Below, one piece after another: positions 1,396 through 10,096 of a stretch of 10,096 nt of DNA. The DNA is from Anaerolineae bacterium. GTDB lineage: Bacteria > Chloroflexota > Anaerolineae > B4-G1. The position numbers and the translations under genes are program-made. The notes under the pieces are model-generated. The model made no database searches and was not told the origin of the DNA. It saw only the letters and a program-made list of their open reading frames with translations. Numbering within the stretch: position 1 is the stretch's first letter; every line of letters begins with the position of its first letter. The stretch lies in NCBI GenBank assembly GCA_030612185.1, contig JAUWOI010000115.1, positions 1-10,096 of the forward strand, in the 5' to 3' direction.

Positions 1396-4300
1396 ATGAA
1401 ATTCACTGCTAGAGAACGCACGTTTTACTTGTCTGTCGTGTTTCTGCTGGGCGCGGGGGCTGTGGTCCTGCTGCTGATCGCACTGTCATCTCCGCTGCGC
1501 GCTGCCTCCACCCGCTGCGATTTCAATGCCGGGGAGACGCTCACTCCCCTGGGCGCTGGTCAGCCCGACGACCTCAAGCGCCGCAATGCCTACAAAGCCC
1601 TCTGGCACGCTCTCTATCACCATGACCACCCCGACCTGGCCTGGAGTGCTGGCGACAGCGCCGTGGACGGCACCAACTATGACCCGGGTGCGATCCTTGG
1701 TTCTCTGAGTGGCGACTTCGATCAGGTGACTGCCTCTGGTCCCTTCAACGTACCTCGTTCCTTCGCCCTCCACCCTCGTAAGGTCGCCCTCTTCTACGGT
1801 ACCACGCGCGACGAGTACGATCAACTCGTCGTCTGGGAGGAGGGGGACTTCGAGCAACTCTTCCGCGTCTACTTGTGGTGCGAGGAGACAGCCGAGGGCT
1901 GCCCCTACTTCGACACGCTCACCGAGACGCAGGTTGCCGCCGACCTCTCCGACTACGACGTTCTTATCCTGCCGGCCATCCGCATCGGCTACGCCGACGA
2001 GGTGGTCGCTGCGCTGGGTACCGACGGCTTGACCGCCATTCGAGAGTTCGTCGAGGGCGGTGGCTTTCTCTATGCCCAGTCTGACGGGGCCTACATCGCC
2101 GAGGCGGCCGGTCTGGTGCCCGCTGGCACCGTGGACCTGGAGACCCGCGTCACCGACTCGGACAACGAGGGGCAATTGGACATTCTCCTGCCCGATCACC
2201 CGCTCACTTTCTCCTGGCTCTCCAATGCCACCTATGTGCTCAACGAGCCAACGCTGTCCTCGACGGCTGGCATCTCCGTCGTAGCGACCTTCGTTGACAC
2301 GACCCAGCCCGGCACGCTGGCCATCGCTGTCGCGACGCCCGGCGATGGGCGGGTGGTGCTCTTCAACGGTCATCCCTCCGATGATATAGACCACCATCCG
2401 CAGGTGCTCGATGCGCTCCTGTGGGCGATGGGTGAGCGAGCCTCCATCCACGGCACGCTCTGCCAGCAGCACTTTGCGTCTGTGGACTGCGACACCATCC
2501 CGGCCTACGAACCGGGCGTGCCCATCGCCGTCACCACTACCCTCAGGAATTACTGGGACGGCCCGCTGGCGGACGTTGTGATCACCGAGACGGTCCACGA
2601 GGGCTTCACTACTACGCTGGCCTCCATCGTGCCCACGCCGACCGGTTTCGTCGAGAATGGTGATGGCACGACGACCATCGTCTGGACGCTGACCGAGACG
2701 CTGCCTGGCGACACTCACTTCACCTACGTGGCCTACACCGAAGCCCCATCCGGCACGACTGGGTCGGCGCTGGTCAGTACCGCCGCTGCCGGCTACGTCG
2801 ACGCCTTCTGGCCGACGGCGTACCACCCTGGCGGCCTTCCTCGCCACATCGTGCGTAACAGCCTGTGGGTCAACACGCTGATGGCGGCGCGGCTGGTTGG
2901 TGATCGGGATATCGAACTGGATGGCCTTTATCCCCTGCCGCCCGAAGGGGAATACTTCGACATCGCGCTGACGCTGGAGAACAAGGAGGAGACCAGCGCA
3001 ACCCACACCATCATCACCGACGTGGTGGCGCTTCTCTCCCCCATCGTGGACGTGGATGATCAGCGACTCATCCCGCAGGTCATCACCGACGTCAGCGGTG
3101 GTGGGATGGCTGTCTCTCACACCATCTTCGCTCACAACGACATCTTCTTCTACGAAACGCCGGTGCAAATCTACCCGCTGCCGGTCCACATTGACGGCGT
3201 GTCGCCCTCGGCCATCACCACCGGCGTCTTCTATACTCTCACCGCCTGGAATGCCGGCCCGAAACTGGTCTACACCTACACCGGCAACTTCACCACCACC
3301 ACCGGTTTCACCAATTCCATCACCATCCCACTGGCCTATGCTGGTTACATCACAGTCACCGCCGAGGGAGACATCCTCCTCCCGGCGCTGAGGATGGTGT
3401 GGGATTTCGGCAGCATGCCCGCCTACGATTACCTGGAACCGGCAGTGCGCTACGGCCTCTTCAGCCAGGAGTTGCTAGGGCGGCAGGTTTCGTTTGCCTC
3501 CGACCCGATGACCGACACCGGCGTCGTACTGGCGGGCAGTGGCGGTTCGGTCTACACTAACCTGGGCGGCCACCCCATCCCGTACCACGAGTTTCTCTCC
3601 AGCGGCGTCGTGCACATACCTGTCCCGCCGGAGATGTCGCGCGTGACCTACCTGGACATCTGGAACCGCACGCAGGAGATGGAGTTGCGCACTGTCTTTT
3701 ACGACATCGTGCCTTTCCCCCCACCGGAGTACCATGCCGTCGTCAACACTACCTTCGAGATGCGGGCCGATCGGGACGGGGATGGGCGCGGCGAGACCCG
3801 CGTACTGGAGTTCCCTGCCCGCGAGGGGGCCGACCTGGTGCTGTACCTCAAATCCTGGTCTAACTTCGACCCGGCGATGCCGCCGTTGGAGAAGGACGAG
3901 ACGCTTCTTGCCCAAGGGATGTTCCGTGGACGGGGATTCGAGTTGCAGCCGATGTACGGCAGTTGGTGGGACTCCTGGAGTTCGCCTGAGTTACAGGGCG
4001 AACCCGGCGCGACCGTGCTTACCGACGTCATCAGCGTGCCCGCCTACGACTATCTCTACTTCCAGCAGTTCCTGCAGAGCCAGCAGCGGGAGGGGATACT
4101 CATCAGCGCTACGCTCGGTACCTACCCTGACTTCCACCGCGAGGGGGTGATGAAGATTGACGACGGGGCGCGGTTTGTCTATCACCAGAAAGCGGTCGGC
4201 CCCAACCGGTACGAGGTCTACGACGCGCACGTGCAGGCGGTCTTCGGTCTTTCCTCCGACGCCCGGGTTCACAAGGCGGTGGCTCCGGTGTTGGTGGCGA

Positions 4301-5844
4301 CCTTCGACGACCACGTCTACCACCTCGTGCGGATCGAGGATCCATGGGACCCCCGCTGTGCGGGTTGGGATCCGTTCATCAAGTCCTACGGCTTTGGGGA
4401 CCTGGCGGCGACGGTCTACGTGGGCGGGCGGCACAATATGGAGTTGCTCTGGCCGCGCGTCGCTCCCGGCGAGGAGACCCAGGTACGGTTGGAGATTCGC
4501 AACAACCAGGATGGCATCACCCTGACCAACTTGGCTATTACGCCCCATGCCCCCCCTGGCATTACCGTCAATCTGCGCAGTGTGACGGAGACGGAGGCCA
4601 TTGAGCCTATCTTCTTTGACTTTCCCTTCCTGCATCAGACGACTGTCCCCGATGGCTGGCGCACGGTGTGGTACTACGACGTGGAGGTCAGTTCGGGCTT
4701 CACCGACATCGGTCACGTGCATCCGATCACCTTCGAGGTGAGCGCCGATGGGCTGCCGGCCGACTTCGTGGTACCGGCGGCGGAGATCGGCGTGGGCGGC
4801 CATGGGCAGTGCATCGAGACAGTCTGGGGTCAGGCAACCGACCTGCAATTGGAGGATCTGTTACCTCCGTGGGCCACGCCCGAGGACGCCCGCCTGGCGA
4901 ACGCCGGTGAGGCCACCTCGTTGGAGGGGGCGCTGGCGCTGGGCGAAGAGGACTCCGCCACAACGATCTTCTCCGCTCTGCGGCCCGTCTCCTTCGTCAC
5001 CACGTCAGTGGACGGCGGCACGCTGGTCTCCTTCACACTCCCTGTCTCGGACGCTTACGACGCCACCCAGATGCCCTGGCTGGAGAACGGCCAGCGCTCT
5101 GGTGAAGTGTACGTGATCTTCAAGTCCCACGCTCAGATCGAGAGTAGCGGCACGGCGATCATCAACTACGGCCCGGTCATTTCCTACACCGATCCCTTCG
5201 CCCAGGTCTACACCGACGTCGGCAATCTGCAGACGGTGGAGGTGCACGGGGCGGCGCTGGTGGTGACCTACACGGTGGATGCCATCACCGATACGCCTGC
5301 CACGAGTACTCGCAGTGGACTTACTGGTCAACCTGTCGCGGGGGTGTCGCCTCTGGTGTTGAACGAGGCGGCCGTGACGGTAGATGTGTTCAACCAGGGT
5401 GATTACATCGCCAAGGAGGTGTGCATCACTGTCACCTTCCCCACGGGCGTGACGCTGGTGGCGAGCACCTGGCTGGTGGCGGCCCAGGGGACAGACTGGG
5501 TAGCCTTCAACCTGCCCGATATGCCCCCTGGCGCACGAGAGCAGATCGGCCTGGTGCTGGAGTTTGTCCCGAGCGGTGTGGGACCGTGGGCGGGTGGGCT
5601 GCGCCCTGATCGTGTCGAAGGACCGATGGCGCCACCTGACTCGTACCGCATCATCGCCCACACTGACGGACGGTACGTCCACGAGTTTCCGTTCGCGGCT
5701 CTCACTCCACGCCGGGTGATCGGCGAGGACCGGCTGGCGGGGCCGCTGGAACTGGGCGCTACCACTCGCGTCTATCGTGCCTTCCTGCCGACGGTGCTGC
5801 GCGATTACTACGCTCCCTGGTGGCCGCAGTCGGTGCAGGATTGA
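1396..5844 (+). CDS. Very large secreted protein with GATase-like and DUF11-like domains, function unknown
   Basis: The 1482-residue product begins with a classical export signal: basic residues 2-8, a hydrophobic core from about 10 to 30, then SSPLRAAS with likely cleavage near residue 37. Residues about 129-350 resemble a class-I glutamine amidotransferase-like/BPL_N fold: strand KVALFYGT, DYDVLILP (from 186), EGGGFLY (from 220) and the closing FNGHPSDD (GHP at 325-327); the nucleophile Cys of true amidotransferases is not evident, so it is probably non-catalytic. Regions near 370-460, 1020-1130 and 1330-1400 look like DUF11/CARDB beta-sandwiches with phrases such as YEPGVPIAVTTTLRN and DVFNQGDYIAKEV. 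A DRDGDGRGE stretch at 792-800 has the spacing of a DxDxDG calcium loop. The end, RVYRAFLPTVLRDYY (from 1458), resembles the YLPLVLR-type tail I associate with secreted Chloroflexota proteins. It has its own promoter and Shine-Dalgarno. A cell-surface or extracellular role is likely; substrate and activity are unknown. Confidence 0.88.
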   Translation: MKFTARERTFYLSVVFLLGAGAVVLLLIALSSPLRAASTRCDFNAGETLTPLGAGQPDDLKRRNAYKALWHALYHHDHPDLAWSAGDSAVDGTNYDPGAILGSLSGDFDQVTASGPFNVPRSFALHPRKVALFYGTTRDEYDQLVVWEEGDFEQLFRVYLWCEETAEGCPYFDTLTETQVAADLSDYDVLILPAIRIGYADEVVAALGTDGLTAIREFVEGGGFLYAQSDGAYIAEAAGLVPAGTVDLETRVTDSDNEGQLDILLPDHPLTFSWLSNATYVLNEPTLSSTAGISVVATFVDTTQPGTLAIAVATPGDGRVVLFNGHPSDDIDHHPQVLDALLWAMGERASIHGTLCQQHFASVDCDTIPAYEPGVPIAVTTTLRNYWDGPLADVVITETVHEGFTTTLASIVPTPTGFVENGDGTTTIVWTLTETLPGDTHFTYVAYTEAPSGTTGSALVSTAAAGYVDAFWPTAYHPGGLPRHIVRNSLWVNTLMAARLVGDRDIELDGLYPLPPEGEYFDIALTLENKEETSATHTIITDVVALLSPIVDVDDQRLIPQVITDVSGGGMAVSHTIFAHNDIFFYETPVQIYPLPVHIDGVSPSAITTGVFYTLTAWNAGPKLVYTYTGNFTTTTGFTNSITIPLAYAGYITVTAEGDILLPALRMVWDFGSMPAYDYLEPAVRYGLFSQELLGRQVSFASDPMTDTGVVLAGSGGSVYTNLGGHPIPYHEFLSSGVVHIPVPPEMSRVTYLDIWNRTQEMELRTVFYDIVPFPPPEYHAVVNTTFEMRADRDGDGRGETRVLEFPAREGADLVLYLKSWSNFDPAMPPLEKDETLLAQGMFRGRGFELQPMYGSWWDSWSSPELQGEPGATVLTDVISVPAYDYLYFQQFLQSQQREGILISATLGTYPDFHREGVMKIDDGARFVYHQKAVGPNRYEVYDAHVQAVFGLSSDARVHKAVAPVLVATFDDHVYHLVRIEDPWDPRCAGWDPFIKSYGFGDLAATVYVGGRHNMELLWPRVAPGEETQVRLEIRNNQDGITLTNLAITPHAPPGITVNLRSVTETEAIEPIFFDFPFLHQTTVPDGWRTVWYYDVEVSSGFTDIGHVHPITFEVSADGLPADFVVPAAEIGVGGHGQCIETVWGQATDLQLEDLLPPWATPEDARLANAGEATSLEGALALGEEDSATTIFSALRPVSFVTTSVDGGTLVSFTLPVSDAYDATQMPWLENGQRSGEVYVIFKSHAQIESSGTAIINYGPVISYTDPFAQVYTDVGNLQTVEVHGAALVVTYTVDAITDTPATSTRSGLTGQPVAGVSPLVLNEAAVTVDVFNQGDYIAKEVCITVTFPTGVTLVASTWLVAAQGTDWVAFNLPDMPPGAREQIGLVLEFVPSGVGPWAGGLRPDRVEGPMAPPDSYRIIAHTDGRYVHEFPFAALTPRRVIGEDRLAGPLELGATTRVYRAFLPTVLRDYYAPWWPQSVQD
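5299..5318 (+). repeat. 20-nt segment shared with a downstream intergenic repeat
   Basis: The 20 bases here inside the secreted-protein gene match 5984-6003 at 19 of 20 positions (only A/G at 5313). In the protein they encode part of PATSTRSGLTGQ, a polar, Thr/Ser-rich linker just before the last beta-sandwich. The second copy lies within the intergenic inverted-repeat element. The shared segment contains the palindrome CGAGTACTCG. Direction of copying cannot be judged from one window. Confidence 0.6.
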
Positions 5845-5958: not shown

Positions 5959-6072
5959 GTCATTGCGAGCGCAGCGAAGCACCGCCACGAGTACTCGCGG
6001 TGGTACTCGCGGTGGCAATCTCCACCTGGGCCATTGGGGGATTGCTTCGTCGCTGGCGCTCCTCGCAATGAC
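5959..6072. repeat. TCATTGCGAGCG-type inverted-repeat element
   Basis: The left arm GTCATTGCGAGCGCAGCGAAGCA starts at 5959. The right arm (6040-6072) reads, in reverse complement, GTCATTGCGAGGAGCGCCAG then CGACGAAGCAATC, so the two ends pair with a short internal offset. The shared ATTGCGAGCG...GCGAAGCA form is that of a palindromic repeat seen between genes in many bacterial genomes. Between the arms is a direct repeat of TACTCGCGGTGG (5992-6003 and 6004-6015) and the palindrome CGAGTACTCG. It shares the GAGCG(A/C)AGCGAAG core with the element at 1084-1209, so related elements flank the secreted-protein gene on both sides. No protein is encoded. Confidence 0.75.
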
Positions 6073-6159: not shown

Positions 6160-6266
6160 CCAAGAAACCGGGTTTTTCGTACAGGAAGACCTCCCTGGCA
6201 GCAGAAAAGCGCCTATCAAGCAATACTACTTCGCTTGTGGAGCACCAAAAACTCGGTTTCTGCTTG
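6160..6266. repeat. ~100-nt leader element bounded by AGAAACCGGGTTTTT inverted repeats
   Basis: AGAAACCGGGTTTTT at 6163-6177 is matched in inverted orientation by AAAAACTCGGTTTCT at 6247-6261 (14 of 15 positions), and flanking CCAAG/CTTGG extends the symmetry. The 69 nt between them show no clear gene. The whole lies in the predicted 5' leader of the glycosyltransferase gene, so it may fold into a long-range stem in the mRNA. The same 15-bp motif recurs at 7582-7615. Small non-autonomous element or paired palindromic repeats are both possible. Confidence 0.62.
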
Positions 6267-6293: not shown

Positions 6294-9200
6294 ATGAACG
6301 ATCAACCCAAGCGGGGGCGGAAGGCTCTTGGCACGGCGTTGCTACTCGCCTCCATTCTGCTGGTGGGAGGTTACCTGCGTTTCACGGGCCTGAATTGGGA
6401 TGAGGGGCAGTGGATCCATCCTGACGAGGGGCATATGCGGATGACCCTCTCGGCTATCAGGATGCCGGACAGTCTCTCGCTTTACTTCGACACGCACAAC
6501 TCCCCGCTTAACGTGCGCAATAGTGGCGCTCGATACAGTTATGGCACGCTGCCACTCTTTCTGACCCGCCTGACGGCTGAGTGGCTCGACCGGGCGTGTG
6601 GTGAATCCCCCGACAGGTTGAGCACAGCCGTGGTGTCGCTGCTCGTGGGGCCTGCGGCTGCTGAATGTGGGCCGGGTACCTTCACCGGCTTCCGCAGCGC
6701 GCAGGTTGGGCGGGCGCTCTCGGCGCTGGCCGACCTGGGGACTGTGTTCCTCATCTACTTGATCGGTCGCCGTCTGTACGGGGAGACGACGGGGCTGCTT
6801 GCCGCAGGGTTGGGGGCACTGACGGCATTCTCTATCCAGCAGGCTCACTTCTTCACCGTGGATAGTATGGCCTGCTTTTTCACCACACTGACTGTTTACT
6901 TCTCGGTGCGCGCGGGCCAATCGGGGGACTGGCTCAGTTTCGGGCTGGCAGGGCTGGCCACCGGCCTGGCCATGGCCTGCAAGGTTGACGCGGCTCTGGC
7001 CTCTCTCCTCGTCGTGCTGGCTGCAGTTGAAATCCCAAATCCCAAACCCCAGACCCCAACCTCCCCCTCCCATACCCCCACACCCCCACACACTTCTTTC
7101 CTCTCCGTCTTCCCCCGTCTTGTCCTCGCTGGCCTGTTGGCATTGGTCGCCTTCCGTATTGCCCAGCCCTATGTTTTTGAAGGTCCAGGTTTCTTCGGCG
7201 TGCGGCCCAGCCCGGAGTGGCTCGACCGGTTGGATCAGATACGCGTTGAGCAGAGCGGCGAGGCGGATTTGCCGTGGGGCCGGCAGTGGACGAATCGTGC
7301 GCCTATCTTGTTCCCCTGGATCAACATGGTTGTCTGGGGCATGGGGCTGCCACTGGGCCTGGCCGCCTGGGCCGGTTGGGCAGTAGCAGGTTTTGAGTTA
7401 TTATGGCGCGGGAAGCGTACCCACCTGATCCCGTGGGTCTGGGTAAGCCTCATGTTCCTTTATCAGGCCACCCGCTGGGTCAAGGCCATGCGCTACTCTC
7501 TGTCCCTGTATCCCATTTTCATTATCCTGGCCGCCTATCTGCTAATGCGCCTGGTCGATCTGCCCCGTGGTACTGGGTCGAAGAAACCGGGTTTTTTCCG
7601 AAAAACCTGGTTTCTGGTCGCTAGTCATATACCGTTGGTCTTATGCGTGGCTGGAACCGCTTTGTGGGCCGGCGCAGTATTCTCCATCTACCAACGTTCC
7701 CATACGCGTCTGGCGGCTTCACGTTGGATCTACGATCACGTCCCGCCCGGCGCTACGGTGGCCAACGAGCATTATGACTGGGGAGTGCCGCTGCGAATAG
7801 ACGGGCACGATCCCTTCAACGGGATGTACAATGGCTTTGAGATGCAGCACTATCACGAGGATACGTGGGAAAAGCGGACGCAACTGTTTGACTGGCTCGA
7901 CGAGGCGGACTATGTTTTTATGGCCAGCAACCGGCTCTATGGCTCCATCGCTCGCCTGCCGGCCCGCTACCCACTGACGACCGAGTATTACCGGGCGCTC
8001 TTCGCCGGCGAATTGGGCTTCGAGTTGGCAGCCGATTTCACCTCCCGCCCGGCCTGTGGCCCGTTCCAGTTCCCCGACCAGGAGAATCCTTTCCCGCTGA
8101 TGGAGGCGGGGTATGCGTATCAGACTGAGCCTATCGTGGTGCGCCTGCCGCCGGCTGAGGAGGCTTTCAGCGTCTACGACCATCCCCGCGTGCTCATCTT
8201 CCGCAAGACGGATGATTACTCCCGCCAGCGCGTGGAGGAGGTGTTGGGCGGGATTGACGTGGAGCACGCGCTGCACGGTCTTACCCCCAGGCAGGCTACC
8301 GGCGCTCCCGAAAATCTAGCGGAACTTGTTCAAGGCCTGGAGGAGGCGCTGGGCGAGATAAATCTGGAGCAGGCTCTTGAGATAATCAGGGTCGCTCCTG
8401 GGCTCCTGGAGTTCGACTCCGAGACCTGGGCCGATCAGCAGGCGGGTGGCACCTGGGCGGAGATGTTCGACCGCGACAGTCTTCTCAACCGGTACCCGGG
8501 GCTGGCGGCGGTCGCCTGGTGGGCCGTCGTGACCGTCTTGGGCTGGCTGGCTTTCCCGCTCATGTTCGTCGCGCTCCCAGCCCTGCGCGACCGGGGCTAC
8601 GGACTGGCGCGGGTATTGGGGCTGCTGCTCATTGCTTATCTCACGTGGCTGGCTGCCAGCCTGCGGGTCTTGCCGAACACACGCTCCACTATCGTGTACA
8701 TGGTGCTGCTCCTGGCGCTGGCCGGCGGTGGGGTGGGGTGGTTCAAGCGGGCCGAGTTGTCTCGTTTTCTACGGAACCGCTGGCGGCTGCTCCTGCTGAC
8801 CGAGGGGCTCTTCGCTTTGCTGTACGTGGTGTGGATAGGCGCGCGGCTCCTGCATCCTGATCTGTGGCATCCGATCGTCGGCGGCGAGAAGCCGATGGTT
8901 TTCGCCTATCTCAACGCGGTCATGAAGTCCACCTGGTTCCCGCCCTACAACCCCTGGTTCTCCGGCAGTTACGTCAACTACTACTACTTCGGCTTCGTCA
9001 TCGTCGGCACGCTGATCAAGTTGCTGGGCACCGTGCCGGCGGTGGCCTACAATCTGATGGTGCCGCTCCTGTTCGCGCTGACCGGCGTAGGGGCCTTCTC
9101 CGTCGCCTATAATCTCTTCGACGGGTTCGACGGGTTCGACGGGCGCGAGGAGCACGAGGAGCGCGAGCGTGGACGCTTGCTGGCGGGAGTGACGGCGCTC

Positions 9201-9635
9201 GGTTTCACCGTCCTGCTGGGCAACCTGGGCGTCGTGCGGCTCATCCGCGCGGCGCTCATCAGGCTGGGCGGTGAGCCTTTCCCCAGCACGATCCCTGGCT
9301 TCGCCGAGATGGTGACGATGTTCAAGGGATTGTGGCAGATGATCGCCCACGGCGCGACGCTCGCGTTGCGGCCTGAGTCGTGGTACTGGGAGCCAACCCG
9401 CATTATCCCGGCCGCGCCAGGGGAGGTGGGGCCCATCTCCGAGTTCCCGGCCTTCACCTTCCTCTACGCTGACCCGGACGCGGGCATGATCTCTTTCTCG
9501 CTGGTACTGCTGGCGTTGGCGATCGTGGTCTACTGGGCACGCACGTCGCGCCCTGGCTGGCTCAGCCTGGTTCTGGGCGGTCTGGCCATCGGCGCGCTCC
9601 GCCCGGCCAACACGTGGACCTTCCCCCCTTCCTGA
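6294..9635 (+). CDS. GT-C glycosyltransferase fused to DUF2298 (Chlor_Arch_YYY) membrane domain; frame ends early
   Basis: The 1113-residue frame has two multi-spanning halves. The first (about 1-465) is a GT-C/PMT-like enzyme: helix 12-28, then [11 protein letters not shown] with the D36-E37 pair, HPDE at 42-45, and [10 protein letters not shown] in a later helix-loop. Such enzymes move sugars from a polyprenyl-phosphate donor on the outer membrane face; the acidic pair is the usual catalytic site. A soluble region (about 465-735) holds the family signature [12 protein letters not shown] (YDHP at 628-631). The second half is DUF2298: GGEKPM (E865), PPYNPW (883-888) and the name-giving NYYYFG (895-900), followed by more helices. 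Frame 1 stops at 9635 just after ALRPANTW, which I take to be a family block that should continue into another helix; the continuation is found in another frame (9629-10096). Simple-sequence blocks are inserted at about residues 246-267, 429-441 and 942-950. The sugar and acceptor are unknown. The neighbouring secreted protein is a possible substrate, by context only. Confidence 0.88.
7030..7094 (+). repeat. In-frame C-rich heptamer block
   Basis: Four tandem 7-mers (AAATCCC, AAATCCC, AAACCCC, AGACCCC at 7030-7057) run into C-rich low-complexity DNA up to about 7094. It encodes a Pro/Thr-rich loop ([20 protein letters not shown]) between two predicted membrane helices (ending LLVVLAAV and starting RLVLAGLL). 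Read on the other strand the units are GGGATTT/GGGGTTT, close to the GGGGATT units at 10010-10037. Confidence 0.85.
7582..7615. repeat. Palindromic repeat inside the glycosyltransferase coding sequence
   Basis: AGAAACCGGGTTTTT (7582-7596), loop TCCG, then AAAAACCTGGTTTCT (7601-7615): 14 of 15 positions are complementary and the last is a G-U pair in RNA, so the whole stem can fold. It encodes [11 protein letters not shown], a basic loop between predicted helices. The left arm is identical to the 15-mer at 6163-6177 in the gene's own leader. Confidence 0.82.
9117..9143 (+). repeat. Three perfect TTCGACGGG nonamers in frame
   Basis: The three units encode FDG-FDG-FDG (residues 942-950), followed by an acidic/basic run [11 protein letters not shown]. 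The block separates two predicted helices of the DUF2298 half. A 9-nt unit keeps the reading frame when the copy number changes, unlike the heptamers elsewhere in this gene. Confidence 0.85.
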
Positions 9636-9698
9636 TGTTAGGTCTGGCTGGCTTGTTGGTGGGGGCGTGGGCAGGCCCGCCTGCGAGGGCGCGGGCAG

Positions 9699-9730
9699 GG
9701 GGACACGGGGACACGGAGACGCGGGGACGC
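9699..9730 (+). repeat. GGGGACAC octamer repeat
   Basis: Four tandem 8-mers: GGGGACAC (twice), GGAGACGC, GGGGACGC, followed by a partial GGGGCAGG. In the shifted frame they encode a polar Gly/Arg/Asp/Thr-rich segment ([14 protein letters not shown]) between two helices. An 8-nt unit would shift the frame if the copy number changed. Confidence 0.85.
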
Positions 9731-9741
9731 GGGGCAGGGGA

Positions 9742-9776
9742 GCAATTCGCTATTCGCAATTCGCAATTCGCAATTT
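9742..9776 (+). repeat. GCAATTC heptamer repeat
   Basis: Five tandem 7-mers: GCAATTC, GCTATTC, GCAATTC, GCAATTC, GCAATTT. It lies 11 nt after the octamer block and in the same loop, encoding [22 protein letters not shown] residues with a 7-residue period. This A+T-rich unit contrasts with the G+C-rich gene around it. Confidence 0.87.
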
Positions 9777-9994
9777 GCCTGCGGGCGTTCGCCTGGCGTG
9801 CCCTCTTGCTCATTGGCCTGACGGTGCTGCTCTACCGGCCCTACATCCAGCACTACGCGGCGGGCTATACGTCGGTCGAGAAGTGGCAGGGGTCGCATAC
9901 GCCGTTCGGGATTTATCTCTGGATCCACGGCATCCTGCTCTTCCCGCTGCTGACCCGTCTGCTGATTGAGGTATACCGGGTTGTCGTTAGACGT

Positions 9995-10087
9995 GGGAGA
10001 TTGGAGATTGGGGATTGGGGATTGGGGATTGGGGATTGGGTATTGGGTATTGGGTATTGGGTATTGGGTATTGGTTCATTGGTCGTT
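9995..10087 (+). repeat. GGGGATT/GGGTATT heptamer minisatellite
   Basis: After degenerate copies (9995-10009) come four perfect GGGGATT units (10010-10037) and five perfect GGGTATT units (10038-10072), then degenerate copies (GGTTCATT, GGTCGTT). In the shifted frame it encodes [21 protein letters not shown], a 7-residue repeat with Trp and Gly. The unit matches the general form of the heptameric STRR repeats described in cyanobacteria (CCCCAAT on the other strand). The array may continue in degenerate form to the window edge. Confidence 0.92.
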
Positions 10088-10096
10088 GGTCTGGGC

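Follow-up and report, generated by a model that had tools for sequence, protein, structure and literature searches.

The window analysed here, an entire 10,096-nt stretch of Anaerolineae DNA, contains a gene for a GT-C/DUF2298 membrane enzyme, for which sugar transfer is predicted from sequence and a structural model, and six blocks of short repeats (B1–B6) are located within this gene. Very probably, dispersed short repeats have recurrently entered the gene in frame and have been retained where they are tolerated, mostly in cytosolic loops. The blocks have defined positions in the window, unlike repeats occupy the same loops in relatives, four of the repeat units recur in the relatives' genomes, and in-frame copies are present in other genes; from these observations we infer the mode of movement and a selective filter.

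Tandem arrays were called with Tandem Repeats Finder (TRF), and the B2 palindrome was recognised by direct reading of the sequence (Table 1). As a null model, 500 dinucleotide and 500 codon shuffles of positions 6294–10096 were searched for rows with periods of 5–30. Five rows scoring at least 51 were observed, at B3, B4, B5 and B6 together with the 21-mer row of B1, against an expectation per shuffle of 0.02 (dinucleotide) or 0.018 (codon). The B1 block comprises rows 7030–7059 (7-mer, score 39) and 7069–7091 (8-mer, 39) and a bridging 21-mer row at 7048–7087 (52); since a score of 39 is expected about 0.2 times, the heptamer part of B1 is weak when taken alone. B3 includes rows 9117–9143 (9-mer, 3 copies, score 54) and 9146–9167 (second nonamer row, 37), and the B6 row extends over 9994–10074 (7-mer, 11.4 copies, score 111). 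B6 terminates 9 bases short of the window end, with only its near side readable. The arms of the B2 palindrome, AGAAACCGGGTTTTT and AAAAACCTGGTTTCT, differ by one mismatch and are separated by a 4-nt spacer, and the open reading frame (ORF) 6294–9635 stays open across 7582–7615. Thus, the TRF rows compared with the shuffles, and direct reading in the case of B2, place all six blocks about where the initial annotation had located them. Its description of one gene in which all blocks keep an open frame was not borne out: ORF 6294–9635 ends and the resemblance to DUF2298 resumes at 9614 in another frame, so that B4–B6 lie beyond a frame break, although each of the two frame pieces is individually open.

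Table 1. Repeat blocks and gene features of the window (cytosolic loops, CL, and transmembrane helices, TM, are predicted; a prime denotes module 2)
Feature	Position	Strand	Description
First frame piece	6294..9635	+	1113 aa; ATG 6294, stop 9633–9635; GT-C module 1 (PMT_2), periplasmic domain and start of module 2 (DUF2298/Chlor_Arch_YYY)
Second frame piece	9614..10096	+	Extends past the window end; DUF2298 continuation, weak (26.2 bits, cut-off 27.8)
Frame break	9614..9635	+	Upstream of B4–B6
Cluster of all 5 departures from near-invariant columns	9474..9608	+	Core columns 981–1025, the His of DLHAHM among them; immediately ahead of the frame break
B1	7030..7094	+	AAATCCC/AAACCCC-type heptamers followed by CCCACACC octamers; module 1 loop CL3
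B2	7582..7615	+	Palindromic repeat with 15-nt arms, encodes an 11-residue peptide; loop CL5 and start of TM11
B2 arm copy (16 nt)	6162..6177	+	Directly upstream of the gene start
B3	9117..9170	+	Nonamers of TTCGACGGG (FDG, 3 copies) and of GAGGAGCAC type; module 2 loop CL1'
B4	9699..9734	+	GGGGACAC octamers, 8-mer, 4.5 copies, score 51; loop CL3' of module 2
B5	9742..9776	+	GCAATTC heptamers, TRF row 9742–9775, 7-mer, 4.9 copies, score 61; also loop CL3'
B6	9995..10087	+	GGAGATT/GGGGATT/GGGTATT heptamers, 11 copies; loop CL4' into the TM23 position

The assignment of the enzyme is based on family searches and a structural model. The first frame piece matched Pfam PF10060 with 245 bits, above the cut-off of 27.8, and TIGR03662 with 257.6 bits against a curated cut-off of 300.25, the piece being truncated by the frame break. 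The AlphaFold2 (AF2) model of this piece has a predicted local distance difference test score (pLDDT) of 85.8, and its module 1 has a GT-C fold with structural matches to STT3, AglB, ArnT and PMT.

The same loops were compared in relatives, designated L for DNA loci, P for proteins and G for genomes. The protein search found 1171 homologues, of which 120 were listed, and 99 of those listed are single proteins of 1400–1600 residues. The DNA set comprised 49 distinct relative genes, some of them partial, with 48 left in the alignment after omission of the short fragment L036; some loci and proteins represent one gene (e.g., L001 and P0007), and the DNA and protein counts therefore overlap. The alignment shows gaps or different repeats in relatives at the block positions, in agreement with the earlier prediction that the blocks would be gaps there. 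P0026 is 95.4% identical to the window piece over the core columns and has B2 in common with it, and its B1 insert, SGQVGKYASRQVGKWASGQ, is wholly different. Of the cases compared, it comes nearest to the rapid variation between strains proposed initially. Repeat-like peptides were also found in the B1 loop of P0003 (TRGQGDRGTGGQGDRETGG), P0010 (TSHVSRFTSHVSRFTSHVSR) and P0029 (LTPALSPGGRGSGVLTPALSLGGRG). Among approximately the first 45 homologues, which were viewed, the loop sequences of near relatives were often wholly unlike each other and others were short or unrepetitive; the B2 palindrome peptide was seen in the window, P0026 and P0003, and in an altered form in P0012. P0001 and P0002 lack this peptide, although the tree groups them more closely with the window. 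The B1 loop of P0022 consists of about 150 residues of a repeated TAGISARQSDQDGRGP-like unit.

At the DNA level, 37 tandem rows scoring at least 45 were observed in the 49 relative genes, compared to 4.45 expected from codon shuffles. Arrays fell at the window-block loops in L001 (3 of 3), L002 (3 of 3), L006 (4 of 4), L008 (2 of 2), L072 (1 of 1) and L078 (3 of 6); the remaining L078 arrays are at the N-terminus and in CL5', and some arrays at block loops run into the next helix. The units vary between genomes and may recur within one, as TCAGCGG does at three sites of L078. In L006, units of 21–41 nt occupy window-block loops; nucleotides 816–934, 2952–3055 and 3644–3722 of this gene carry 33–41-nt repeats in three loops, with a common CGAAGCG/AGCGGAG-like core. 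In L001 (P0007), an 11-copy ATTCTCC heptamer array at gene nucleotides 3657–3734 replaces the TM23–24 hairpin of other members; replacement of a two-helix hairpin would leave the sidedness of the remainder unchanged.

Several of the window's units were found again in the genomes of relatives, where reversed patterns served as the control and overlapping matches in one array were counted repeatedly. The arm of the B2 palindrome, with at most one mismatch, gave 103 matches in G002, 22 in G003 and 13 in G004 and was present in 7 of 21 genomes, with one control match in the 21. Three copies of the B5 unit GCAATTC matched 92 times in G087, 21 times in G021 and 17 times in G007 (4 of 21 genomes), the B1 unit AAATCCC matched 41 times in G001 (7 of 21 genomes), and three copies of the B6 pattern GGRDATT gave 21 matches across 5 of 14 genomes; the control was zero in all three cases. 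We infer that the repeats are also dispersed in the window's own genome.

These data bear on the possibility that every block arose privately, by local slippage in pre-existing gene sequence, with no dispersed element involved. The relatives' sequence NLFGGxRRG at the B3 position would fit such an origin, and so would B6, where the unit variants stand in blocks (GGAGATT, then GGGGATT, then GGGTATT), a sign of stepwise growth. However, the units of B1, B2, B5 and B6 recur in relatives' genomes, the B1 insert of P0026 is unrelated, and a palindrome is not a product of tandem expansion; slippage as the source of every block is therefore quite unlikely. The earlier proposal of repeated independent insertion or expansion of unlike units stands for the unrelated families, several of which recur across genomes, with the correction that B3 looks like local expansion.

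The loops containing the blocks were identified from a topology in which the TM borders were assigned manually and the cytosolic side is a prediction. In the AF2 model, B1 is in coil (residues 246–268, pLDDT 53–63), the FDG part of B3 is in coil 942–951, and B2 is partly in coil and partly at the start of helix 434–467. B4–B6 are outside the model, and for them the relative L007 supplied the loop positions. B1 follows TM6 and B2 follows TM10, and the CL3' loop with B4 and B5 is placed in module 2 like the CL3 loop of B1 in module 1. All six blocks touch predicted cytosolic loops, although B2 and B6 extend into the following helix position. The loop placement proposed initially is partly supported, the blocks being situated between helices or at their edges with these two reaching further.

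Arrays with units of 6–9 nt and at least three copies were then assigned to the sides of the membrane, using the 48 aligned relative genes and the two window pieces. Of 17 such arrays, 13 fall largely in cytosolic loops and 4 largely in TM segments, with none in periplasmic regions, while 14.6% of residues are cytosolic and 53% periplasmic; the binomial probability of 13 of 17 being cytosolic is 1.8e-8. The four TM arrays are B6 of the window, one in L001, one in L078 and one of codon type in L066, and each partly overlaps a cytosolic loop. Retention in loops alone, as originally suggested, describes the majority of arrays and not these four. Regions of extra length, defined as at least 8 residues beyond the core in the 99 homologues, showed a similar distribution: 259 were in the 151 cytosolic columns, 52 in the 787 periplasmic columns (31 in the C-terminal domain and 15 in EL1) and 24 in the 497 TM columns. 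The target loops probably face the cytosol, according to the predicted topology, opposite the catalytic periplasmic face; because they lie on the side away from this face, surface variation is not their natural reading.

A number of observations weigh against recurrent entry of dispersed repeats, or against its restriction to cytosolic loops. Arrays with 6–9-nt units were present in only 6 of the 49 relative genes (L001, L002, L008, L066, L072 and L078), and many relatives have non-repetitive inserts at the block loops, so that loop length varies without repeats as well. Matches were absent for the palindrome in 14, for GCAATTC in 17 and for AAATCCC in 14 of the 21 genomes, and the B4 octamer GGGGACAC, with only 4 matches in 2 of 21 genomes, was rejected as a common family. 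B3, judging by the peptides, looks like a local expansion of native codons. Another 25 rows were located mainly in TM segments in 15 cases, in cytosolic loops in 9 and in the periplasm in 1, many of them resembling runs of hydrophobic codons. In the manual topology, several short loops labelled periplasmic have more K+R than D+E, and the homologues are related, so the counted events are not independent. A peptide period of 7 residues was considered as proof of a heptamer origin and was kept as weak: in cytosolic loops, lag 7 reached 10.6% versus 8.6% (z about 6), a modest excess, lags 2–4 were also raised, and lag 7 was likewise the peak of the periplasmic control (z 10.3), which failed because its segments are 99 copies of conserved sequence.

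Arrays were also found in other genes. A sample of 864 kb from five genomes contained 34 arrays with 6–9-nt units inside ORFs, 32 at edges, 21 between ORFs and 7 in the target gene; the ORF models, simply the longest frames of 100 aa or more without overlap, were crude, and some assignments to the inside may be spurious, above all for short ORFs. L001 carries 3 arrays in about 4.5 kb compared to 9 in about 278 kb of sampled coding sequence of the same genome, an enrichment that is overstated since L001 is exceptional among the 49. With ORFs longer than 450 nt required, copies inside ORFs made up 16 of 26 for GCAATTC (G087) and 8 of 24 for the palindrome (G002), both counted in 20 fetched regions per family from the top of the match lists, and 12 of 22 for AAATCCC (G001). 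These shares are below the sampled coding share of about 0.91, as expected if many genic insertions are lost. The host genes include those for MutS, UvrD, an amidohydrolase, PPDK, GT4 enzymes and FemAB. Among 20 ORFs chosen by hand, not at random, from the sampled and fetched regions for a Pfam scan, 8 were of GT-C type (L178 below the cut-off) and 2 had no family (L174 and one ORF of L176); 27 to 34 PMT_2 matches per genome were found in three genomes.

Different families at a single site or loop are seen in these genes too. The clearest single comparison is that of the amidohydrolases L163 and L215, 58% identical between G087 and G001, where one place is occupied by GCAATTC in one protein's gene and by AAATCCC in the other. 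The DUF2298-type genes L209 of G001, assigned by alignment alone, and L129 of G087 have the two heptamers at the loop of the window's B3, and the PMT_2+NHL proteins L093 and L130, from G002 and G008, share a loop that carries unlike arrays. In L129, a DUF2298 paralogue, positions 1–1677 contain five heptamer arrays, including two of GCAATTC type in separate loops. Locus L116 encodes a MutS with an octamer array just past domain V (2–2110), adjoining a UvrD helicase (2074–5367) that contains both a heptamer array and an intein-like insert.

The idea that the repeats are pre-adapted by being open in all six frames was not supported. Among units of 7–8 nt with at least three copies in loci L080–L139, both strands were open for 24 of the 36 units inside ORFs (22.2 expected from shuffled units), 9 of the 31 at edges (9.6) and 5 of the 19 located between genes (7.7); a filter acting at genes is possible.

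Loci that undergo phase variation through simple sequence repeats (SSR contingency loci) contain tandem repeats within the frame whose units shift the frame. A switch of this kind, in which slippage of the 7- and 8-nt arrays toggles the enzyme by frameshift, might be suggested by the units of B1, B4, B5 and B6, which are not multiples of three, and by the 11 copies in B6. By arithmetic, an array that lost or gained one 7- or 8-nt unit would put the gene out of frame and so turn it off, instead of varying the loop. The frame break at 9614–9635 nevertheless falls outside the arrays, similar arrays occur in MutS and UvrD genes, where switching has no obvious benefit, and, unlike in contingency loci, the families at one site differ between relatives; we regard a phase-variation switch as very unlikely.

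The frame break raises the question of whether the gene is dying in this genome, with repeats accumulating under relaxed selection. In the window piece, 5 of 204 near-invariant columns are altered, all within 45 core columns before the break (Table 1), while the median for the 99 homologues is 1, a comparison that favours the 99 because they helped to define these columns. L007, which is outside the 99, also has 3 of 206 altered, although scattered. The array-bearing genes L001 and L002 depart in 0 and 2 of 262 columns and have no internal stop, and the uninterrupted frame of L001 (1517 aa, zero stops) demonstrates that intact relatives exist; by their place in the tree, both are also among the 99, as P0007 and P0027. 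The odd residues and the loss of frame in the window copy may reflect either local decay or sequence error. Taken together, accumulation of the repeats in a dying gene is unlikely, somewhat less so than the other alternatives.

Mis-joins of metagenome assemblies at the blocks, caused by the repeats themselves, could also be considered, as repeats of this type are recurrent in these genomes and the 16 relatives with names all come from metagenome assemblies. Yet the arrays are short (less than 100 nt in the window), in frame and located between conserved helices, and arrays are found at the same loops in independent assemblies, which makes such an artefact extremely improbable.

Other repeats and neighbours in the window were recorded as well. 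A 20-nt palindromic repeat, GCCACGAGTACTCGNNGTGG, occurs at 5299–5318 in the neighbouring 1482-aa ORF and again, 95% alike, in the intergenic region at 5984–6003; as a common family it was rejected, being found in 0 of 21 genomes. An intergenic inverted repeat with 17-nt arms is present at 1014–1050, and a longer stretch at 1086–1200 resembles, on direct reading, a dispersed intergenic element. The neighbouring ORF 1396–5844 had no family match in one Pfam scan and one NCBIfam scan. A plasmid megablast search with 9614–10096 gave no matches, and a search of viral contigs with P0001 patterns revealed no matching stretch.

Parts of this pattern resemble known kinds of repeats, as far as the available portions of the sources cited here describe them. 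Rickettsia palindromic elements (RPE) and intragenic repetitive extragenic palindromes (REP) are dispersed short repeats located in frame inside genes, and REPs in recB of two Xanthomonas species occupy roughly one common site (PMC3733652, PMC10969869). The window gene likewise carries short, probably dispersed repeats in frame; B2 is a palindrome in frame, and copies of its arm are dispersed in the relatives G002, G003 and G004. Unlike RPE and REP, however, the repeats described here are mostly 7–8-nt tandem arrays, several families are present per gene, and one set of loops has been struck in several lineages. Genome-wide G-rich tandem units of 7 nt, GGGNATC and GGGGA(C/T)T, are known in Xanthomonas and Nostoc; they lie mostly between genes (68% in Nostoc) and are depleted on the coding strand (PMC4692102). 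The B6 unit GGGGATT fits the Nostoc form, with later units of this block being GGGTATT, whereas 12 of 22 AAATCCC and 16 of 26 GCAATTC arrays are inside ORFs in the related genomes. Within the same phylum, Fam_1_14_23 of Chloroflexus aurantiacus comprises short satellites scattered across one genome (PMC6749651), a likeness drawn from the description; unlike the window's blocks, it is not described as in-frame loop inserts in the available part of that source. A literature search of limited coverage found no account of membrane loops repeatedly occupied by heptamer arrays and nothing joining DUF2298 and glycosyltransferase, only unrelated work on repeats inside Anaerolineae genes.

According to the explanation that we favour, recurrent in-frame entry, 7- and 8-nt tandem arrays and a REP-like palindrome would repeatedly reach the gene from a genome-wide pool. 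They would arrive more or less anywhere, probably without being directed to the gene, and frame and fold would decide on their survival, extra residues being tolerated mostly in the short cytosolic loops between helices. An array of 7- or 8-nt units traverses all three frames and hence gives a peptide period of 7 or 8 residues, and a stop-free array could enter any frame if the added length were divisible by three. Arrays may also expand locally by tandem growth, to which the blocks of unit variants in B6 point, and at B3 native codons would have expanded. Adjacent arrays of unlike families (B4 beside B5, and other pairs) suggest that a site already occupied is one where insertion is tolerated. 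As a tentative extension, which is possible rather than probable, the 7–8-nt arrays could constitute a non-coding mobile intragenic class in Anaerolineae that disperses across the genome and enters any frame, with the cytosolic loops of GT-C enzymes acting as landing zones in which families replace each other, a fast clock of loop change.

Insofar as the available sources allow comparison, the separate parts of the pattern are covered by RPE and REP, heptamer repeats and satellites, and what would be new is the recurrence of several families in one set of membrane-enzyme loops. One loop filled by unrelated repeats in close relatives would provide many natural replicates, which open three old questions to testing: by what means short tandem repeats move in the absence of a known enzyme, how far and on which side a many-helix membrane enzyme tolerates insertions, and whether the loop inserts are neutral or used. 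For annotation, low-complexity stretches in such proteins may be recent repeats and not domains. If the explanation is true, repeat DNA would steadily supply free-living bacteria with new protein segments.

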